DNA of 64,000 nucleotides from Alphaproteobacteria bacterium. GTDB lineage: Bacteria > Pseudomonadota > Alphaproteobacteria > UBA2966. Positions 484 to 54,439 of this stretch are shown here, one piece after another. The DNA lies in the NCBI GenBank assembly GCA_018650465.1, contig JABIFY010000075.1, positions 1 through 64,000 of the forward strand. Reading direction: 5' to 3'. Under the pieces are notes generated by a model. It saw only the letters and a program-made list of their open reading frames with translations, searched no databases and was not told the origin of the DNA. Position 1 is the first letter of the stretch, and each line of letters opens with the position of its first letter. Both the position numbers and the translations under genes were made by a program.

Positions 484-1248
484 TCAGTTCAATAACAACC
501 CTGCGCCAGAGACCGCCAATAGAATCAAAAGTCCCCTTTTGAACTGGGCTTCATCGACACGGCGATAAAGAAAAAAACCGAGATAACTTCCGGCCAGCAT
601 GACCGGAATGGCAAGAACAGTCGGGCTGATGAGACCCTTGTGCATTTTGCCCTGCACTGCATAGACACACAGCGTCATCACATGCATGGAAATATTGAAA
701 ATCTGGAAAGTGGCTCTTTGGCGATCCTTTGACCATTTCATCATGCTGCACCAAATTGTTGGCAGAATACCCGACAGTCCAGCAAAGCCACCCATGACGC
801 CACCGCCAAAACCAACCAGATACATGGACCAACGCGGTGCCCGTTGAAGACGCGGCAGTCGGCCAACAATAAAGACCGAAGCGACATAGCCAATGAGCAT
901 GACACCCGCGATCTTGCGGAACCACCAGGGATCAAGGATGTGCAGGATACTGGCCCCGATGGGCGAGCCCACAAGACCAAATCCGATGAACGGCAAGGCG
1001 GCCTTGAAATCGATGCTGCGCCAGATGCCAGGCAACGTCAGCAGTTGCACCACCAAAGAACCCAGCACAACCAACTGAGCCAATATCAGGGGGGACAGGG
1101 TGTGGGCCCAGATACTCAACGATGTTGCCCCGAAAGCAAAACCAGAAAATCCCGACGCAAGCGCCCCGGCAAAGGCACCGGCAAGGATCGCCCAGACCGG
1201 GTTACTGTCTCCTGAAATCAGATCAACCAGGTTCGCCAGATTTTCCAT
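484..1248 (-). CDS. TauE/SafE family sulfite/organosulfonate exporter-like membrane protein
   Basis: This is a 254-residue hydrophobic protein with about eight predicted membrane segments and the glycine-rich repeats of the TauE/SafE (DUF81) family, for example the GxxxGALASGFSGFAFG stretch near residues 23-42 and the related FGGGVMGGFAGLSG stretch near residues 148-161. The two similar halves are usual for this family. Family members export sulfite, sulfoacetate or other small anions, or have unknown substrates, so the substrate here cannot be named. The ATG at 1246-1248 is preceded by AAGGTG about ten bases upstream. That ribosome-binding region lies inside the left palindrome of the repeat at 1253-1350. 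The gene is monocistronic and converges with the AlkB-like gene. Confidence 0.85.
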   Translation of the reverse strand: MENLANLVDLISGDSNPVWAILAGAFAGALASGFSGFAFGATSLSIWAHTLSPLILAQLVVLGSLVVQLLTLPGIWRSIDFKAALPFIGFGLVGSPIGASILHILDPWWFRKIAGVMLIGYVASVFIVGRLPRLQRAPRWSMYLVGFGGGVMGGFAGLSGILPTIWCSMMKWSKDRQRATFQIFNISMHVMTLCVYAVQGKMHKGLISPTVLAIPVMLAGSYLGFFLYRRVDEAQFKRGLLILLAVSGAGLLLN

Positions 1249-1252
1249 TAGA

Positions 1253-1350
1253 GTGTTTCACCTTTTTCTGAAACACAGGTTTGCGTCATGGTATTGAAAA
1301 GCAATGCAGAAATATAACAAAGCGATTCGCATTAAACCGAAATCGCCTTA
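1253..1350. repeat. Paired-palindrome intergenic element, copy 1
   Basis: Two inverted repeats lie about 70 bp apart. Palindrome A has GTGTTTCA (1253-1260) pairing with TGAAACAC (1269-1276). Palindrome B has GCGATT (1322-1327) pairing with AATCGC (1341-1346), within AAAGCGATTC...AAACCG...AATCGCCTTA. The same A-then-B arrangement with the same spacing occurs at 46086-46186. The element sits directly upstream of the TauE-like gene and next to the terminator of the FAH gene. Confidence 0.6.
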
Positions 1351-1376
1351 GCCAACTTCACCAGATATTATGGCTC

Positions 1377-33002: not shown

Positions 33003-34046
33003 CTAATAACTTCCATCACGCGCTTCGTAATGGGTTGGCTTGCCAAGGCTGGCCTGACCACGCGTCACCCAGTCAGCAACCCAGGCAATCATCGTGTCCG
33101 TATCCACGACGGGTTTGCCAAATAAACCGACAGCTTTTTCCGTGTTGGATAACCATGCCATCTCGGCGGGCGCGCCTGTGAACTTTGCAGTTGTTCCCAT
33201 GATTTGGGCACAAGCCTCAGCAACTTTTTGTACCTCCAGGGTTTCCGCCCCGGAGACATTAAGGATGGCCGTCGGGCTCTCGCACAGGTGTAAACAACGC
33301 AAGGCCTGCGAGATAGCATCGCCCTGCCAGATCACGTTGACATGGCCCATACCCAGATCAATAACCTCGCCCGCAAAAACCTTGGCAGCAATATCATATA
33401 AAACGCCATAACGCATATCGATGGCGTAATTCAAACGATACATCAAAACCGGATTGCTGTTCTGTCGGCTGAAATAATCAAACATGCGTTCCCGACCCAG
33501 GCATGAATAGGCATATTCGCCGGCGGGTGGCAGTGGTGCTGTTTCTTCCGTCGCACCGCCACTGTGCGTTGCCACAAAGGGATAGACACAGCCGGTTGAG
33601 AACACCACAACGCGAGATGTGGTGAAGGTTTTGGCGACAATAGCCGGAACTTCGACATTCATGGCCCAGGTCAGTTCTTCTGATCCAGTCGTGCCAAACT
33701 TGCGCCCGGCCATGAAGATAACATTGGGGACCTGTGGCAAGGCGGCGACGGCGGCTTCGTCCAGCAAATCACAGGTGAGGGTTTCCACGCCGCAGGCCTG
33801 TAGTTTGTCGACCACAGACGGATCGCTGAAGCGGGCCACGCCGATCACCCTTTTGTCTGGCGCTGCTCGTTTGGCCAAACGGGCCAGGGTCGGCCCCATT
33901 TTACCGCCAACACCCAGGATCATGATGTCGCCTTCAAGCCGGGCCAGATCATCCACCAGGGCCTGGCTGGGCAACGTCATGAAGTCTTCGAGGGCCGCTT
34001 CATCATTGAAGGATTGCGGGAAGTTATCTTTTGACAGAACGTTCAT
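33003..34046 (-). CDS. NAD(P)-dependent epimerase/dehydratase-family protein (extended SDR)
   Basis: A Rossmann domain starts at about residue 38: IMILGVGGKMGPTLARL contains the GxxGxMG nucleotide loop, unusually about 40 residues from the N-terminus. STGCVYPF and the YSCLGRERMFDYF segment provide the Tyr-x-x-x-Arg variant of the SDR Tyr-x-x-x-Lys, so the catalytic lysine appears replaced by Arg or lies elsewhere. YRLNYAIDMRYGVL and the C-terminal domain follow the extended-SDR plan. The protein is 347 residues. The substrate is unknown. It is followed after three bases by the GNAT gene and preceded, 117 bp away, by the nitroreductase gene. Confidence 0.78.
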   Translation of the reverse strand: MNVLSKDNFPQSFNDEAALEDFMTLPSQALVDDLARLEGDIMILGVGGKMGPTLARLAKRAAPDKRVIGVARFSDPSVVDKLQACGVETLTCDLLDEAAVAALPQVPNVIFMAGRKFGTTGSEELTWAMNVEVPAIVAKTFTTSRVVVFSTGCVYPFVATHSGGATEETAPLPPAGEYAYSCLGRERMFDYFSRQNSNPVLMYRLNYAIDMRYGVLYDIAAKVFAGEVIDLGMGHVNVIWQGDAISQALRCLHLCESPTAILNVSGAETLEVQKVAEACAQIMGTTAKFTGAPAEMAWLSNTEKAVGLFGKPVVDTDTMIAWVADWVTRGQASLGKPTHYEARDGSY

Positions 34047-34163
34047 CAGGCTACGATTTCCTCTTTTGCGATCCCGGATTAATCCGAATCGCCTCGTTTC
34101 ATATTTGCATTGGCATTCGAAGCCTTGCGGTCATCCGGTGCTTCAGAACGAAACTGAAACACT

Positions 34164-34943
34164 TTAATCAATTTGGGATTTATCCTTGTACATCACACGA
34201 TGGCGTTGGGTGCGGACCCATTCCTCGATGTCATCCAGAGATTGATAGTTATCCATATTATATTTGCCGAAACTGGCGATCTCACCGAGGTCTTTTTTCC
34301 AGCGATCATAGGGCGGTTTGGCGGGCGGGCCGAAGCACATGATGTCGATCACGGCTATATCATCCGGCACACCCAGCAAGGGCTTCAGATCATTTTGGGC
34401 ATCTTCCTGGCCGATAGCAGTGACCCACCAGACCGCATAACCAAGCGCTGCCGCTGCCAGATGGGCTGACATGGTCGAGGCAGCCACGGATTGCAGCAAG
34501 ATACGCTGGGCATTTTGATGATACAGGTCATCAAGTTCCGAGCCATCATTCAGCACCGGAAAGGCATTCACATAACGAAAATCCGTGCAAACGGCGATCA
34601 GGCCGGGGGATGTTTTCATGCCCGCATAGTTGGGCGTCGGAAACTTCATTTTCAGTTTGGCGCGTTTGGTCGCTTCGGCAACAAAATAATCCCCAAGCTT
34701 TTCTTTCGTGTCGTCATCTTCCACCACGATATAATGCCAGGGCTGGGCATTGGCACCAGAGGGGCCTTGGCGGGCAGCTTCCAGAATCATCTCGTAATGC
34801 TCGCGCGGCACCACAAAGTCCGGATCAAAACTGCGCGTGGTGCGACGCGACAGCACCACATCCATGAATTGTTTGTAACGTTCCAGATTTTCAGGCGAAC
34901 CCGGCACCAAGGTTTCAACGTCTTTTTGCTCACGATCACTCAT
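34164..34943 (-). CDS. Nitroreductase family FMN-dependent oxidoreductase
   Basis: This 259-residue protein has the flavin-binding landmarks of the nitroreductase family: LSRRTTRSF near the N-terminus (FMN phosphate), ARQGPSGANAQPWHYIVV, and a helical LQSVAASTMSAHLAAAALG dimer segment. Members reduce nitroaromatics, enones or flavins, or dehalogenate. Its ATG at 34941-34943 overlaps the stop of the xanthine-dehydrogenase-type gene (ATGA), and AAGGGA precedes it. Translation is therefore coupled, which suggests that the two gene products work on the same compound. An upstream in-frame start at 34970 is inside the previous gene and disfavoured. Confidence 0.85.
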   Translation of the reverse strand: MSDREQKDVETLVPGSPENLERYKQFMDVVLSRRTTRSFDPDFVVPREHYEMILEAARQGPSGANAQPWHYIVVEDDDTKEKLGDYFVAEATKRAKLKMKFPTPNYAGMKTSPGLIAVCTDFRYVNAFPVLNDGSELDDLYHQNAQRILLQSVAASTMSAHLAAAALGYAVWWVTAIGQEDAQNDLKPLLGVPDDIAVIDIMCFGPPAKPPYDRWKKDLGEIASFGKYNMDNYQSLDDIEEWVRTQRHRVMYKDKSQID

Positions 34944-37249
34944 TGAATTTTTCCCTTGCAGGCTTTCCATATCTTTTCAGCGGTCCATGGCATGGATACT
35001 GAAGAATTTGGTCCGATAGCATCGACAACAGCATTCAGCGCCGCCGCCGGTGCGCCAATTGTCCCAAGCTCCCCCACGCCCTTGAAACCCATATGATTAT
35101 TGGGCGACGGCGTGTTCACACTGACATGATCAATAAAGGGGAAGTCATCTGCCTTCGGCACACTGTAATCCATCCACGAGCCGGTGATCAGCTGGCCACT
35201 TTCCTGGTCATACCGACAATCTTCCTGAAAGGCCTGCCCCAGGCCTTGGGCGATACCGCCATGCATCTGGGCCGCGACCAGGGCCGGGTTCACTTCGGTC
35301 CCCACATCAACGGCTGACGTCACCCGATCAATACGCACAAAGCCCGTGGCCGGGTCGATCTCGATCTCGCAGACAATCGCACCTTGGGGCATAGTTGCTT
35401 TCTGGTCTTCAAATTCTGACTGGGCTTCGATGCGTGATGACAGATGTGGTGGCAGGTTTTCCGCGTCGGCCAGTTTTGCCGCCAGATCATAAAGGCCGAT
35501 GGCCCGATCCGTGCCCTGAATTGTGAAACGTCCGTCGACGATCTCAATATCTTCTGTGGCCGCTTCCAGGACATGAGCGGCAGCTTCTCGCCCCTGATCA
35601 GCCGCGCGTTTGGCGGCCCGGGCCAAGGTCGCACCCGAAATCACCGTAGATGACGATCCACCCGTGCCGCCGCCCTTGGCAATCAGGGCCGTATCGCCTT
35701 CCACAACTTTTACTTCCCCATAAGGAATATCAAAGGCCTCAGCGACGATCTGGGCGAATGCCGTTTCATGGCCCTGCCCCGACGATTGTCCGCCCGCCAG
35801 CGCTGACACATGACCTTCCGCCTTGACGGTGACGGTACTTTGTTCGTCTGTAATCCCGCCCGTGCAATGCACATAGGCCGACAAGCCAATGCCACGCAAT
35901 AATCCTTTGCCTTCGCTGATCATGCGACGGGCTGCAAATCCGGACCAGTCGGCCCGATCTACGGCTGCATCCATCACGGCTTCAAAATCACCGCTTTCAT
36001 AAACCAGATGCACCGGCGTGGTGTAAGGCATGGCGCTGGCCGGGACCATATTGCGCCGGCGAATTTCCAATCGGTCGATACCTGTTTTGTCTGCCGCCAG
36101 ATCAACCACGGCCTCCAGCATTGTCATGGGGTCGGGGCCACCTGCCCCCCGGAAGGCATCCACAGGCAGCGTATTGGTAAAGACACCGCGCACCCGCAAA
36201 TCCATGGCAGGGATCGTGTAACAACCACTGGCGGCACGGCTGACACCACTGGTGGGAATGCCGGGTCCAAAGGTAGAAAGGTAGGTGCCGAGGTTGGCAA
36301 TATTATCAAACCGCACGGCAAGGAACTTGCCTTGTACGTCCAGGGCGAGGTCCACCCGGCCCGTCAGGGCGCGGGACTGAACATCCGACATCAGGCTTTC
36401 AGCCCGGTCTTGTTCCCAGCGCACAGGGCCGTTTAATTGCCGGGCTGCAAAGATGATCGCGGCCTGTTCCACATAGGCAAAATATTTCGGACCAAAGCCA
36501 CCGCCTACGTCGCCGGTCACTACACGCAGCCACGATTTTTCCTCGCCAAAAACCCTCTCGGCATACAACGTTTGCAAAAGGTGCGCCCCCTGAGAGGGAC
36601 AATAAAGGGTCATGCCATCATCTGTGGGCATCGCAATAGCCACACGTGTTTCAACCGCCGCGTAATGCAGACGGTTGCCATCATAATTGAAAGAAACAAC
36701 ATGATCTGCCGCATCAAAAGCTGCCGTCGTCGCGGCCGCATCACCGGCTCGCCAGTCATAACAAAGATTGCCAGGGGCCTGGTCCCAGACGATTGGCGCG
36801 CCGTCTTCCAGGGCAGTTGCTTCGTCCACCACACTATCGCGCTCGGCGTAATCTACAAACACAGCCTCGGCCGCGTTACGAGCTTCCAGAAGGCTATCGG
36901 CCACAACAAGAGCAACGCTTTCCCCCACATGACGCACCCTGTCAGTGGCCATGATCCGGCGCGGCGGTTCAATATTCAGATCGCCCGCATGATCCGTTAC
37001 CGGACTGATAGTTGGAATGGGGTTCAGATGGGCTGTATCTGCACCGGTAATGACGGCTCGCACGCCTGGATAACCGCTTGCGTCTTCTGTATCGATGCCA
37101 AGGATATCGGCATGGGCATAGGGGCTGCGCACAAAGATGGCAAAACACTCGCCGTCAAAATGCAGATTGCCCGTGAACGTACCCTTGCCGCGCAACAATC
37201 GGTCATCTTCCAGCCGCAGCACCGATTGCCCGATTTTACCCTTGCTCAT
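34940..37249 (-). CDS. Xanthine dehydrogenase-family molybdopterin-binding large subunit (second of two)
   Basis: At 769 residues it is a complete large subunit of the CoxL/XdhB-type molybdenum hydroxylases. The N-terminal a/b-hammerhead domain (about 18-125, RLEDDRLLRGKGTF) is followed by cofactor domains with VDAFRGAGGPDP (the CoxL active-site loop equivalent), AGGQSSGQGHETAFAQ, and GVGELGTIGAP with the catalytic Glu near residue 730. The CoxL-specific Cys loop (VAYRCSFR) is absent, so it is not a form I CO dehydrogenase. It is 48 bp after a related 771-residue subunit. No 2Fe-2S or FAD subunit is encoded anywhere in the window. Confidence 0.9.
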   Translation of the reverse strand: MSKGKIGQSVLRLEDDRLLRGKGTFTGNLHFDGECFAIFVRSPYAHADILGIDTEDASGYPGVRAVITGADTAHLNPIPTISPVTDHAGDLNIEPPRRIMATDRVRHVGESVALVVADSLLEARNAAEAVFVDYAERDSVVDEATALEDGAPIVWDQAPGNLCYDWRAGDAAATTAAFDAADHVVSFNYDGNRLHYAAVETRVAIAMPTDDGMTLYCPSQGAHLLQTLYAERVFGEEKSWLRVVTGDVGGGFGPKYFAYVEQAAIIFAARQLNGPVRWEQDRAESLMSDVQSRALTGRVDLALDVQGKFLAVRFDNIANLGTYLSTFGPGIPTSGVSRAASGCYTIPAMDLRVRGVFTNTLPVDAFRGAGGPDPMTMLEAVVDLAADKTGIDRLEIRRRNMVPASAMPYTTPVHLVYESGDFEAVMDAAVDRADWSGFAARRMISEGKGLLRGIGLSAYVHCTGGITDEQSTVTVKAEGHVSALAGGQSSGQGHETAFAQIVAEAFDIPYGEVKVVEGDTALIAKGGGTGGSSSTVISGATLARAAKRAADQGREAAAHVLEAATEDIEIVDGRFTIQGTDRAIGLYDLAAKLADAENLPPHLSSRIEAQSEFEDQKATMPQGAIVCEIEIDPATGFVRIDRVTSAVDVGTEVNPALVAAQMHGGIAQGLGQAFQEDCRYDQESGQLITGSWMDYSVPKADDFPFIDHVSVNTPSPNNHMGFKGVGELGTIGAPAAALNAVVDAIGPNSSVSMPWTAEKIWKACKGKIQ

Positions 37250-44861: not shown

Positions 44862-45016
44862 GCTGTAGGATTCAAAAATTATTGTGCTAAGCTAATTTTG
44901 AGTGTGAAAACCAACTTATCCTGACAAACAATAAACAAGGGCATATTGGTTACTCACAAAGGGGTTCAAAAAAGACATATCAAACTAAGACATAAATGTT
45001 TCAGGGAGGAATAAAC

Positions 45017-45997
45017 ATGTCATCAATTTCCAAATTACTGGCGACCGCTGCGGTTGTTGGTCTGGTTGCTACGGGTGCGTCATCCGGGGCTTTTGCGGCT
45101 GATACCTTCGTCCGGATCGCATCCGGCCCGGCTGGTGGCAGCTGGTACCCATTGGGTGCCAAGATGGCTGAAATATTCGGCAAAAATGTTGCTGGCATTA
45201 CTACGTCCAACGGCCCCGGCGGCGGCATCGGTAATGTGTTGGACGTCAACAAAGGTGAAGCTGAACTAGGCTGGACCTATGGCCACACAGCCTATGACGG
45301 CTATACCGGCGTGGCACCATCCTTCAAAAAAGCCAATCCGAATGTGCGCCACCTGGCCACTTTTTATCCGGCCGCTTTCCAGACTGCTGTTCTGGCCAAA
45401 TCCGGAATCATGACCTACGCCGACCTCAAAGACAAAAACATCAGCCCTGGCAAGGCCAAGTGGTCCGGTTATGCAGCTTTCAAAATGATTGCTGGCAAAT
45501 ATGGCTTCTCGGTTGACGATGTTAAAAAAGCTGGCGGAGCCGTGCACCACGTGGGCTATTCAGATTCAGTCGCCCTGATGAAAGATGGTCACATTGATGC
45601 CTTCTCTGGTCTGACCAGTCTGCCTCAGGCGTCGTTCCTGGATCTCGAATTCAACCCAGGCATTCGTTTGCTGCCTGTCAGCGAAGCGGTTCTGGGCGGC
45701 ATTCTGAAGTCCAATCCAGGTTATGTCCGCGTCGACATGAATTCATCACACTATAAAAGCATGAAATCACCCGTCCCGACACTGGGCGCTGTGACTATCA
45801 TGGTGGTGAACAAAGACGTGTCGGATGATATTGTCTACGGCATCACCAAGGCCCTGTGGGAAAACCATGCAGGCCTGGTCGGTGTGAAAAAAGTCTGGAA
45901 CAAGGTGCTACTTAAAAATGCCTTGATGGGTGCCGCCACACCGGTCCACCCTGGTGCCATGCGCTATTACAAAGAACATGGCGTTAAAAAGATGTAG
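45017..45997 (+). CDS. TAXI-family TRAP transporter solute-binding protein
   Basis: At 326 residues it starts with a signal peptide (hydrophobic core residues 8-20, cleavage after AFA near residue 28) and continues TFVRIASGPAGGSWYPLGAKMAE, split over two motifs typical of the TAXI group. TSNGPGGGIGNVLDVNKGEAELGW follows as the second ligand-contact segment. It binds an unknown carboxylate in the periplasm and delivers it to the TRAP membrane protein encoded 214 bp downstream. The ATG at 45017 with GGGAGGA upstream is preferred to an in-frame start at 44996. A hairpin terminator lies between the two genes. Confidence 0.92.
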   Translation: MSSISKLLATAAVVGLVATGASSGAFAADTFVRIASGPAGGSWYPLGAKMAEIFGKNVAGITTSNGPGGGIGNVLDVNKGEAELGWTYGHTAYDGYTGVAPSFKKANPNVRHLATFYPAAFQTAVLAKSGIMTYADLKDKNISPGKAKWSGYAAFKMIAGKYGFSVDDVKKAGGAVHHVGYSDSVALMKDGHIDAFSGLTSLPQASFLDLEFNPGIRLLPVSEAVLGGILKSNPGYVRVDMNSSHYKSMKSPVPTLGAVTIMVVNKDVSDDIVYGITKALWENHAGLVGVKKVWNKVLLKNALMGAATPVHPGAMRYYKEHGVKKM

Positions 45998-46068: not shown

Positions 46069-46085
46069 CTACTGACAATTGGCTA

Positions 46086-46186
46086 AAGCGTTTCTGAACT
46101 TTACGGAAACGCAGCGTTGTATCAAACTAATGGTGTGCGCCAAAAAATAAAGCCGAAGCGATTCCGTTCAAACCGGAATCGCCTTA
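46086..46186. repeat. Paired-palindrome intergenic element, copy 2
   Basis: Palindrome A has GCGTTTC (46088-46094) and GAAACGC (46106-46112). Palindrome B has GCGATTCCG (46158-46166) and CGGAATCGC (46174-46182), followed by CTTAAG. Distance from A to B is 70 bp, against 69 bp in the copy at 1253-1350, and the order is the same. It lies just upstream of the TRAP transporter gene and may carry its promoter. Confidence 0.6.
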
Positions 46187-46210
46187 AGTCACAAGGTGCC
46201 TGTATCTGAC

Positions 46211-48226
46211 ATGTCTGACCTGACCAGTTCTGCTTCCAGCCCGCAACGTATCGAATATCACGAGGCCCGTGAGTACACCTTGCTCGAGCAAGTGTTGCGC
46301 CACCGGACCATCAACCTGATTTGGCTGGTGACCATCACCGCCGCCATTCTCAGCATTGGACTGGCGGTTTTCCATCTCTATACGGCCGTCTTTGGCACCC
46401 CGGAAACACGTTCTTTTCGCTCCACGCACCTGACAGTTATGCTGGTTCTGGCCATCTTGCTGAACCCCATGGGGCGAAATAACCTGCGTGACAAAATCGT
46501 CGGCAGCAAGGCCTGGGCCGGATTTATCATCGACTTAGGGTTAGTTGGTCTCGGCATCGCCATTCAGGTTTATACCCTGTGGGACATTACCGCTTTTGCC
46601 GAACGCGAAGGGGACTTAATCGAAAGTGACTTGTGGATGGGCTCCGCCCTGATCCTGCTGGTTATGGAGGCCACCCGACGCGCCGTAGGCATTCCCATGG
46701 TCATGGTGACGTCCTTCTTTATCGTACATGCCCTCTATGCCAACCATTTTTTCAGCTTCTTTTACGGCCCGCCCACATCCTTCACAAAATATATCGATAT
46801 TGTCTTTGTGCGCACGGAAGGCATCTTCGGCATTCCTATGCTGGTGGCCTCGACCTATATCGTTTTGTTCATCATGTTTGGGGCGATCCTGATCCGGTCC
46901 GGTGCCGGGCGCTTGTTCATTGATCTAGCCATCGCCCTGACCGGTCACCGCACGGGCGGTCCCGCCAAGGCCGCGGTTGTGGCCAGCGCCTTCCTCGGCA
47001 CGGTTTCCGGTTCTGCCGTGGCCAATGTGGTCACCACCGGGTCCTTCACCATCCCGCTGATGAAAAAACTGGGTTACAAAGCGAAATTTGCTGGCGCGGT
47101 TGAAGCCTGCGCCTCGTCGGGTGGGCAGATCACACCGCCAATCATGGGCGCTGCCGCTTTTGTCATCGCCGAGTTCATGCATGTCAGTTATTTTTACATC
47201 ATCATCGCGGCTATCATCCCGACCGTTCTCTATTTCGCCACGATCTATTTCATGGTCGATATCGAAGCACAAAAAGAAGGCATTGAACGCCTGGACAAGT
47301 CGGTTCTGCCGCGTGTGGGTGAAGTTCTCGCGCAAGGCTGGCACCAGTTATTCACCCTGGTCGTTCTGGTCGGACTGCTGGCCATTGGCTACACACCTAT
47401 GATGTCTGCCTTCTGGGCCATCCTGACGTTGGTAGGCCTTAGCTTTATACGCCAGGGCACGCGCATGAGTTCCGTTGACCTGTTTGCAGCCCTGGAATCC
47501 GGTGTGCGCAGCGCCATGCCGGTTACGGTTGCTTGTGGCTGTGCCGGGATCATCATTGGCTCGATCTTTGTCTCTGGCCTGGGCCTGAAATTCACCAACT
47601 CGGTTATTGAGCTCTCCGGCGGCAACCTCTTCCCGCTGCTGGTGCTGACCGGAATCGCCGCCATCATTCTTGGCATGGGCATGACCACAACGGCAGTCTA
47701 TATCACCGTTGCCGCCTTAATCGTGCCATCCCTGATCCAGATGGATGTGGTGCCCATGGCGGCACATTTGTTTGCCTTCTATTTTGGCGTTGTCTCCACC
47801 ATCACACCGCCGGTGGCGCTGGCGTCCTTTGCGGCGGCAGCCATAGCAGGGTCGAAACCCATGGCCACGGCGGTGGAATCCGCCCGCATTGGCATCGCAA
47901 AATATCTGGTGCCCTTCGCCTTTGTCTATAACCCCAGTTTGTTGTTTGAAGGTCCGGGCTGGCTGACGGTTATCAGCACCGCCTTCGCTCTGGTCGGCAT
48001 GTGGGGTTTGTCCGTCATGCTGGAAGGTTGGCACAAAGGCCGTATCTCCATGCCGGTACGCACCATTGTCGGCCTCTCCTCCCTCGCCCTGTTATTCCCG
48101 CCGCAACTTGATTTCTTTGACACTGTGCCGGGCTATGCTGTGGTGACCATCGGTCTTGCCTGCCTGGTCGTCGTTCTCACCATGCAAAACAGAAGCAGGC
48201 AAACCGTGAACGGGAGGACCGGCTGA
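46211..48226 (+). CDS. TRAP transporter permease, fused small (4TM) and large (12TM) subunits, TAXI type
   Basis: This polytopic protein of about 671 residues joins the DctQ-like and DctM-like parts in one chain, as is usual for TAXI-linked TRAP systems. Conserved DctM-type stretches are SGSAVANVVTTGSFTIPLMKK, broken here as the central cytoplasmic loop, and EACASSGGQITPPIMGAAAF. GMGMTTTAVYITVAALIVP and FYFGVVSTITPPVALASFAAAA are in the second half. It uses an ion gradient to import the ligand of the binding protein upstream. The start is uncertain between ATG 46211 and an in-frame GTG at 46196. It overlaps the small membrane-protein gene by one base. Confidence 0.9.
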   Translation: MSDLTSSASSPQRIEYHEAREYTLLEQVLRHRTINLIWLVTITAAILSIGLAVFHLYTAVFGTPETRSFRSTHLTVMLVLAILLNPMGRNNLRDKIVGSKAWAGFIIDLGLVGLGIAIQVYTLWDITAFAEREGDLIESDLWMGSALILLVMEATRRAVGIPMVMVTSFFIVHALYANHFFSFFYGPPTSFTKYIDIVFVRTEGIFGIPMLVASTYIVLFIMFGAILIRSGAGRLFIDLAIALTGHRTGGPAKAAVVASAFLGTVSGSAVANVVTTGSFTIPLMKKLGYKAKFAGAVEACASSGGQITPPIMGAAAFVIAEFMHVSYFYIIIAAIIPTVLYFATIYFMVDIEAQKEGIERLDKSVLPRVGEVLAQGWHQLFTLVVLVGLLAIGYTPMMSAFWAILTLVGLSFIRQGTRMSSVDLFAALESGVRSAMPVTVACGCAGIIIGSIFVSGLGLKFTNSVIELSGGNLFPLLVLTGIAAIILGMGMTTTAVYITVAALIVPSLIQMDVVPMAAHLFAFYFGVVSTITPPVALASFAAAAIAGSKPMATAVESARIGIAKYLVPFAFVYNPSLLFEGPGWLTVISTAFALVGMWGLSVMLEGWHKGRISMPVRTIVGLSSLALLFPPQLDFFDTVPGYAVVTIGLACLVVVLTMQNRSRQTVNGRTG

Positions 48227-50180: not shown

Positions 50181-50271
50181 CGTCATGCCGGACTTGATCC
50201 GGCATCCATGCTTATCCGCAAGGTATTCCATAATTCAAACGCGTAGACCCCGCATCAAGTGCGGGGTGACG
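50181..50271. repeat. REP-like bipartite palindromic repeat, copy 1
   Basis: It starts CGTCATGCCGGACTTGATCC and ends CATCAAGTGCGGGGTGACG. The left part folds as ATGCCGGA/TCCGGCAT and the right as ACCCCGC/GCGGGGT, with about 45 bp between. It is closely similar to 53490-53580 and 54348-54439. It lies between the convergent TPP-enzyme and ABC-ATPase genes. Confidence 0.88.
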
Positions 50272-50313
50272 GAGAGATTAGTGGAGCAGCTGTGCCGAAA
50301 AGACGATGCTGCT

Positions 50314-53466: not shown

Positions 53467-53489
53467 GGTTGGCTCAAGTTTAAACTCTT

Positions 53490-53580
53490 CGTCATGCCGG
53501 ACTTGATCCGACATCCATGCCTATGTCTCGGGGAAACCACAATCCAAAAGCGTGGACCCCGCATCAAGTGCGGGGTGACG
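53490..53580. repeat. REP-like bipartite palindromic repeat, copy 2
   Basis: It has the same CGTCATGCCGGACTTGATCC start and GCATCAAGTGCGGGGTGACG end as the copy at 50181, with a substitution that weakens the left stem (CCGAC for CCGGC). Its right half (53521-53580) is inside the reading frame of the P-loop kinase on the minus strand and supplies its stop codon. Confidence 0.88.
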
Positions 53581-54136: not shown

Positions 54137-54347
54137 GAAATTGGAAAATCAGCTGTTCCCTGGCCCACCATTCAATGAATGGTGATAATTACGACGGCTC
54201 TAGAGGTGGCAGAATTTTTCATGCGGACCTGATATCTGATTGTGAGAAGACTGTCAACGAAACGGTTTGGCCCCAAATCTTCGAGATGGTCAAGACACGG
54301 TCTCTCGGGAATTGAACCAGCAGCGATAGCCTCCAATCTAAACTCTC

Positions 54348-54439
54348 CGTCATGCCGGACTTGATCCGGCATCCATGCCTTCCCCGACGGGATGCTTGTA
54401 TTCCGGATGCGTAGACCCCGCATCAAGTGCGGGGTGACG
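54348..54439. repeat. REP-like bipartite palindromic repeat, copy 3
   Basis: It matches the copies at 50181 and 53490 in both terminal palindromes and in the CATCCATGC segment after the left stem. The central spacer is not conserved. It ends 17 bp before the stop of the GMC oxidoreductase gene. Confidence 0.88.

Follow-up and report, generated by a model that had tools for sequence, protein, structure and literature searches.

The nearest match in design to the repeat described here is provided by the CIR repeats of Caulobacter and Brucella, as judged from their published description. The Caulobacter CcrM-associated intergenic repeats (CIR1-4; Chen and Shapiro, 2003) are ~110 bp long, with two arms joined by a linker, GANTC sites and TA ends, and the mechanism of their mobility is listed as unknown in a review (PMC2229807). 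The present repeat shares this design: it is alphaproteobacterial, intergenic and of similar length, and it consists of two inverted repeats that form two stem-loop arms joined by a linker, with TA termini and GANTC sites. The two differ in their conservation, CIR being highly conserved between species (PMC2229807) whereas the present sequence is confined to one genus. They also differ in the location of GANTC, which lies in the terminal loop of CIR but in the right stem here, and in only 58/94 copies. Set against CIR in this way, the element is a new family of an already known kind of bacterial repeat, and it adds to the two-arm (CIR-like) repeats of Alphaproteobacteria, a poorly understood group, a clear and recently mobile family that is restricted to one genus.

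The RUP element of Streptococcus pneumoniae (107 bp, ~108 intergenic copies, TA-containing target) is also comparable, and its ends are likewise similar to the ends of an IS630 element in the same genome (PMC2229807); the terminal repeats of RUP are short and simple and a target duplication is reported for it, whereas each end of the present element is itself a palindrome. The GTAG- or CGTC-tagged REP dimers share with it two hairpins, outward tags and a spacer (20-100 bp in REP dimers); their heterodimers are common and the CGTC families are without a known transposase (PMC3733652). The present element differs from them by a CTAG-like tag and one fixed ~105-bp unit, and no associated RAYT was found.

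Copies of the element in the window

Copies were scored with R1, the covariance model used to search for the element, and three were located in the window (the whole 64,000-nucleotide stretch of DNA that was analysed). In the first-pass annotation, two pairs of palindromes had been reported to recur in the same order and at nearly the same spacing. Both pairs were found at those positions, in the same order and on the same strand, with starts 69 and 70 bp apart.

Copy 1 (1248..1351, plus strand; R1 match of 83 bits) belongs to subfamily B (GTGTTTC type). Its left palindrome, GTGTTTC-N10-GAAACAC (1253..1276, plus strand), folds as a hairpin; its right palindrome, GCGATT-N13-AATCGC (1322..1346, plus strand), carries a GANTC site and is slightly imperfect (GCGATTCG../..CGAAATCGC). 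The left terminal TA (1249..1250) abuts the ATG (1246-1248) of a TauE/SafE-like gene (484-1248, minus strand) and the right terminal TA is located at 1349..1350. On the minus strand, the left palindrome carries a AAAGGTGA motif ~11 bp before this ATG (window 1246-1276), and insertion of copy 1 may, judging from this motif, have supplied a ribosome-binding site to the TauE/SafE-like gene.

Copy 2 (46083..46187, plus strand; 109.5 bits) belongs to subfamily A (GCGTTTC type) and separates an NMT1-like gene (44996-45997) from a gene for a DctM-like transporter (46196-48226). Its left palindrome, GCGTTTC-N11-GAAACGC (46088..46112, plus strand), is supported by the fold, and its right palindrome, GCGATT-N13-AATCGC (46158..46182, plus strand; i.e. 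GCGATTCCG-N7-CGGAATCGC), carries two GANTC sites. Copies 1 and 2 each form two hairpins when folded either as DNA or as RNA, and the hairpins of copy 2 are stable (z -4.1). The spacer had been described as poorly conserved, which holds between copies 1 and 2 but not inside a subfamily, where spacers can be aligned; the weak match between these two copies arises because they belong to different subfamilies.

Copy 3 (34063..34167, minus strand; 71.3 bits), missed in the first pass, is older and decayed, and its left palindrome is absent from the predicted fold. It is flanked by a nitroreductase-like gene (34164-34970, minus strand) and an epimerase-like gene (33003-34046, minus strand).

Structure and distribution of the family

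The element is an intergenic repeat of ~101-105 bp with the following layout: (C)TAG-A, the left palindrome GYGTTTC..GAAACRC, ~45 nt of spacer, the right palindrome GCGATTCCG..CGGAATCGC, and YYTA(G). In the consensus of 20 aligned copies (CTAGAGCGTTTCCGGGTTTnACGGAAACGCAGCGTTGC..AAGCnGAAGCGATTCCGTTTAAACCGGAATCGCCnTAG), the reversed right end (CTAGGGCGATTCCGG) resembles the left end (CTAGAGCGTTTCCGG), the ends being inverted copies of each other. The palindromes are therefore terminal inverted repeats that are themselves palindromic; this relationship and the (C)TAG/YTA(G) ends of the unit had not been noticed earlier.

A genome-wide search with the covariance model (full-length copies at E<3e-6) and with palindrome patterns, which had been proposed as a check, yielded 104 full-length copies in the genome to which the window belongs, that of an uncultured marine bacterium (hereafter the host genome). 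A length of exactly 105 nt was shared by 72 of these copies. Across the whole genome, GCGATTN{8,20}AATCGC occurred at 38 places (3 for the reversed control) and GYGTTTCN{7,13}GAAACRC at 59 (1 for the control), in agreement with the earlier view that chance does not account for the pairs. Neither of the outcomes named as counter-evidence, namely few further copies, or lone palindromes with variable spacing, was observed; a minority of the palindromes are solo. The family thus has the size (<200 bp), copy number, terminal inverted repeats and lack of coding capacity of a MITE.

Subfamilies were distinguished by GCGTTTCC (copy at 46.1 kb), GTGTTTCA (copy at 1.25 kb) and GCGTTTCCGACGAAGG, the last with GCTATT/AATAGC right arms. 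At C109:13092, C112:97781, C52:110221, C28:58243 and C144:79051 of the host genome, mosaic copies were seen in which an additional palindrome (GGAGCATTTTCTCTGAAATTGCTCC) separates the spacer from the right arm.

Arm pairing was assessed in the 105-nt copies by swapping arms among copies. Perfect 7-bp left arms were present in 49/94 copies (mean of 27 and maximum of 38 after swapping) and perfect 6-bp right arms in 34/94 (18 and 28, respectively), counts that are inflated by kinship among copies, relatedness being only partly controlled. Distinct compensated right arms included GCTATT, GCGTTT, GCAATT, GTGATT, ACGATT and GCGGTT. The compensating changes proposed from the two window copies thus extend genome-wide, above chance, yet many copies have decayed, uncompensated arms, and so the pattern is consistent with a history in which source elements were selected, or palindromes corrected, before the copies decayed.

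The GANTC sites were also considered as the reason for which copies are kept, i.e. as cell-cycle-methylated, CcrM-linked sites regulating neighbouring genes. GANTC is 6-fold denser in the copies than in their flanks (9.97 vs 1.6 per kb) and is conserved in the Caulobacter CIR repeats (PMC2229807), but the right-palindrome GANTC is missing from the remainder of the 94 copies mentioned above, being often lost while the palindrome stays. In addition, compensated palindromes without GCGATT persist, such as GCTATT/AATAGC (12 perfect variants), most sites differ between the host genome and its congener, and the sequence of the palindrome may by itself give rise to GANTC. Retention for GANTC regulation is accordingly very unlikely.

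The element sequence is confined to one genus. The congener G001 (MAG SI054_bin61, Saanich Inlet) carries at least 64 copies (R1). When 84,980 species genomes were scanned with a pattern, SI054_bin61 was matched 13 times, and the only other matches were 7 unrelated sequences without (C)TAG ends, chance predicting a few. With R1, no strong match was obtained in 385 alphaproteobacterial genomes beyond the host genome and the congener; two weak matches in the distant alphaproteobacterium G273 were the sole further hits. G273 carries an analogous but different 97-nt two-palindrome repeat (L336, L337), composed of a GGTTCCGG hairpin, a spacer and a GCGTTTCCGTCGAAGACGGAAACGC hairpin. A looser TRGAGCG palindrome pattern was found in 12/289 genomes, with at most 9 copies each. 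It is a speculative and rather improbable extension that TAGAGCG-tagged two-hairpin elements form a widespread alphaproteobacterial class, moving by hairpin structure rather than by sequence, without target duplication, by means of an enzyme so far unconnected with repeats of this kind; its members would then be the present family, the 97-nt element of G273 and the TRGAGCG palindromes of the 12 genomes.

Occupied and empty sites in two species

Contig C68 of the congener is collinear with the window (~74-83% identity), and copies 1 and 2 are both missing there, their sites being empty. Approximately 2 Mb of the congener genome was used, and 34 host copies could be placed at orthologous sites. 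At 23 of the 34 comparable sites the host genome had an excess of 91-128 bp; at three host sites (C40:17542, C6:24532 and C149:2135) the excess was exactly 101 bp and the junctions were clean. In the reverse direction, two congener copies were missing in the host genome, each by exactly 101 bp. Few sites look common to both genomes.

Occupied and empty orthologous sites, a further MITE trait, therefore occur in both directions, and the element is almost certainly mobile. The first-pass annotation had called the module a functional unit and had offered a promoter/operator pair, a mobile miniature element or an RNA; the empty congener sites, together with the ~100 copies of constant length, bear out the unit and favour the second option, so that the repeat is read as a non-autonomous MITE-like element and not as an RNA or operator. 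More fully, it is probably a non-autonomous mobile element of ~101-105 bp, MITE-like or CIR-like, in which a spacer of ~45 nt separates two hairpin-forming palindromes that are inverted relatives, and whose ends are (C)TAG / YTA(G). The sequence-based part of this explanation comprises the copy number, the fixed length, the intergenic bias and the presence or absence of copies between the two species. Mechanistically, a trans-acting transposase would recognise the palindromic ends, would excise or copy the unit, and would insert it between genes, at sites resembling YAR/(C)TAG.

By an ORF-based call, 85/104 copies are intergenic, compared with ~9% of random windows. The surrounding genes are co-directional (50 copies), divergent (20) or convergent (10). 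A structured RNA or a promoter/operator pair acting in cis would be consistent with the two stable hairpins and with the 34 of the 50 copies between co-directional genes that lie on the strand of those genes. However, the proposed check of position relative to gene starts gave these mixed arrangements, no Rfam family was matched, promoter and terminator predictions at copies 1 and 2 gave none that was consistent, and positions are lineage-specific, most comparable congener sites being without the element. The empty orthologous sites already go most of the way to refuting action in cis, which is extremely unlikely; the apparent operator pair is explained away by mobility. Single copies may nevertheless act on transcripts.

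Locus L170 (C3:26800-29900 of the host genome) and locus L307 (C75 of the congener) share a stretch of at least 905 bp, within which one copy lies, at 100% identity, the genomes being otherwise ~78% identical; this block is probably due to recent transfer or cross-binning. The copy in it (C3:28293), which seems perfectly conserved, was not counted as a sign of selection, since identity extends over the entire block in both genomes.

Ends of the element and candidate enzymes

At the left and the right end alike, TA is the most frequent dinucleotide (50/104 and 45/104). The two end dinucleotides are identical in 46/153 copies, slightly more than the 39 expected (P=0.06); of the 30 copies whose left end is CA, only 2 have CA at the right end too. 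At four clean sites where the empty ortholog is CA, the left end is CA and the right end is TA or TG, a pattern at odds with the simple duplication of a 2-bp TA target. Flank statistics gave no convincing offset for a target duplication. The junctions are compatible with the absence of a target duplication, or with a duplication that mutation has obscured.

A transposase gene was seen neither within nor next to the element copies examined. The host genome contains one IS630-type element (L032:573-1635), and an enzyme of this type is the most likely candidate for the mobiliser, at about even chances of being the right one, because the ends of the resident element (CTAGAGCATTTCCG.. / CTAGAGCACTTCCG..) match the CTAGAGCGTTTCCG of the repeat almost identically. 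The repeat differs from this insertion sequence in having no transposase gene and in having a palindromic second arm, which the left end of the insertion sequence lacks. In the congener (MAG, 94% complete), no DDE_3 or Y1 transposase and no IS630-type element could be detected. Repeated genes are often missed in MAGs. The occupied and empty site pairs in two species, combined with a resident IS630 with matching ends, make the mobilising enzyme testable. The L032 transposase is encoded in two separate frames, the break lying close to a T/A run (GGTTTTTTTTAAAG), which suggests programmed frameshifting.

Movement could instead be single-stranded, the element being a REP/BIME-like head-to-head dimer of CTAG-tagged hairpins that a Y1 (RAYT or IS200-IS605-like) transposase would mobilise without target duplication, the left tag coming from the target. 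Both ends are indeed hairpins with outward tags, as in tagged REP dimers (PMC3733652), arm pairing is kept though arm sequence changes, and some palindromes are solo. The tests on ends and flanks gave no convincing target duplication, the empty site at the clean CA sites equals the left end and not the right, and one Y1 (RAYT-like) transposase gene was detected in the host genome (L033). This gene is, however, flanked by an unrelated repeat, the congener has many good copies yet no detectable Y1 gene, the ends match an IS630 instead, and the tag is CTAG/YYAG-like, not GTAG. A Y1-driven dimer is thus an unlikely, if conceivable, account, and RAYT/REP as the sole explanation was rejected, the host Y1 gene being located in a different repeat.

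As a larger autonomous relative, a pair of identical inverted copies in the congener (L313) was considered and rejected: the ORFs enclosed are without a recognisable transposase. These two copies (L313:8000-9590, contig C121) are 1.5 kb apart, each within a longer shared repeat.

The repeats that flank the L033 Y1 gene on both sides (GGCACTAATTAAC) are palindromic (GGCACTAATTAACAAANATTAAT..GTGCNTGGCACCAATTAAT) and are probably the own REP of that gene. The window itself contains three copies of another two-palindrome repeat, CGTCATGCCGGACTTGATCCGGCAT..GACCCCGCATCAAGTGCGGGGTGACG (50181-50272, 53489-53580 and 54346-54439), with CGTC tags pointing outward, which resembles the CGTC-tagged REP dimers (PMC3733652).
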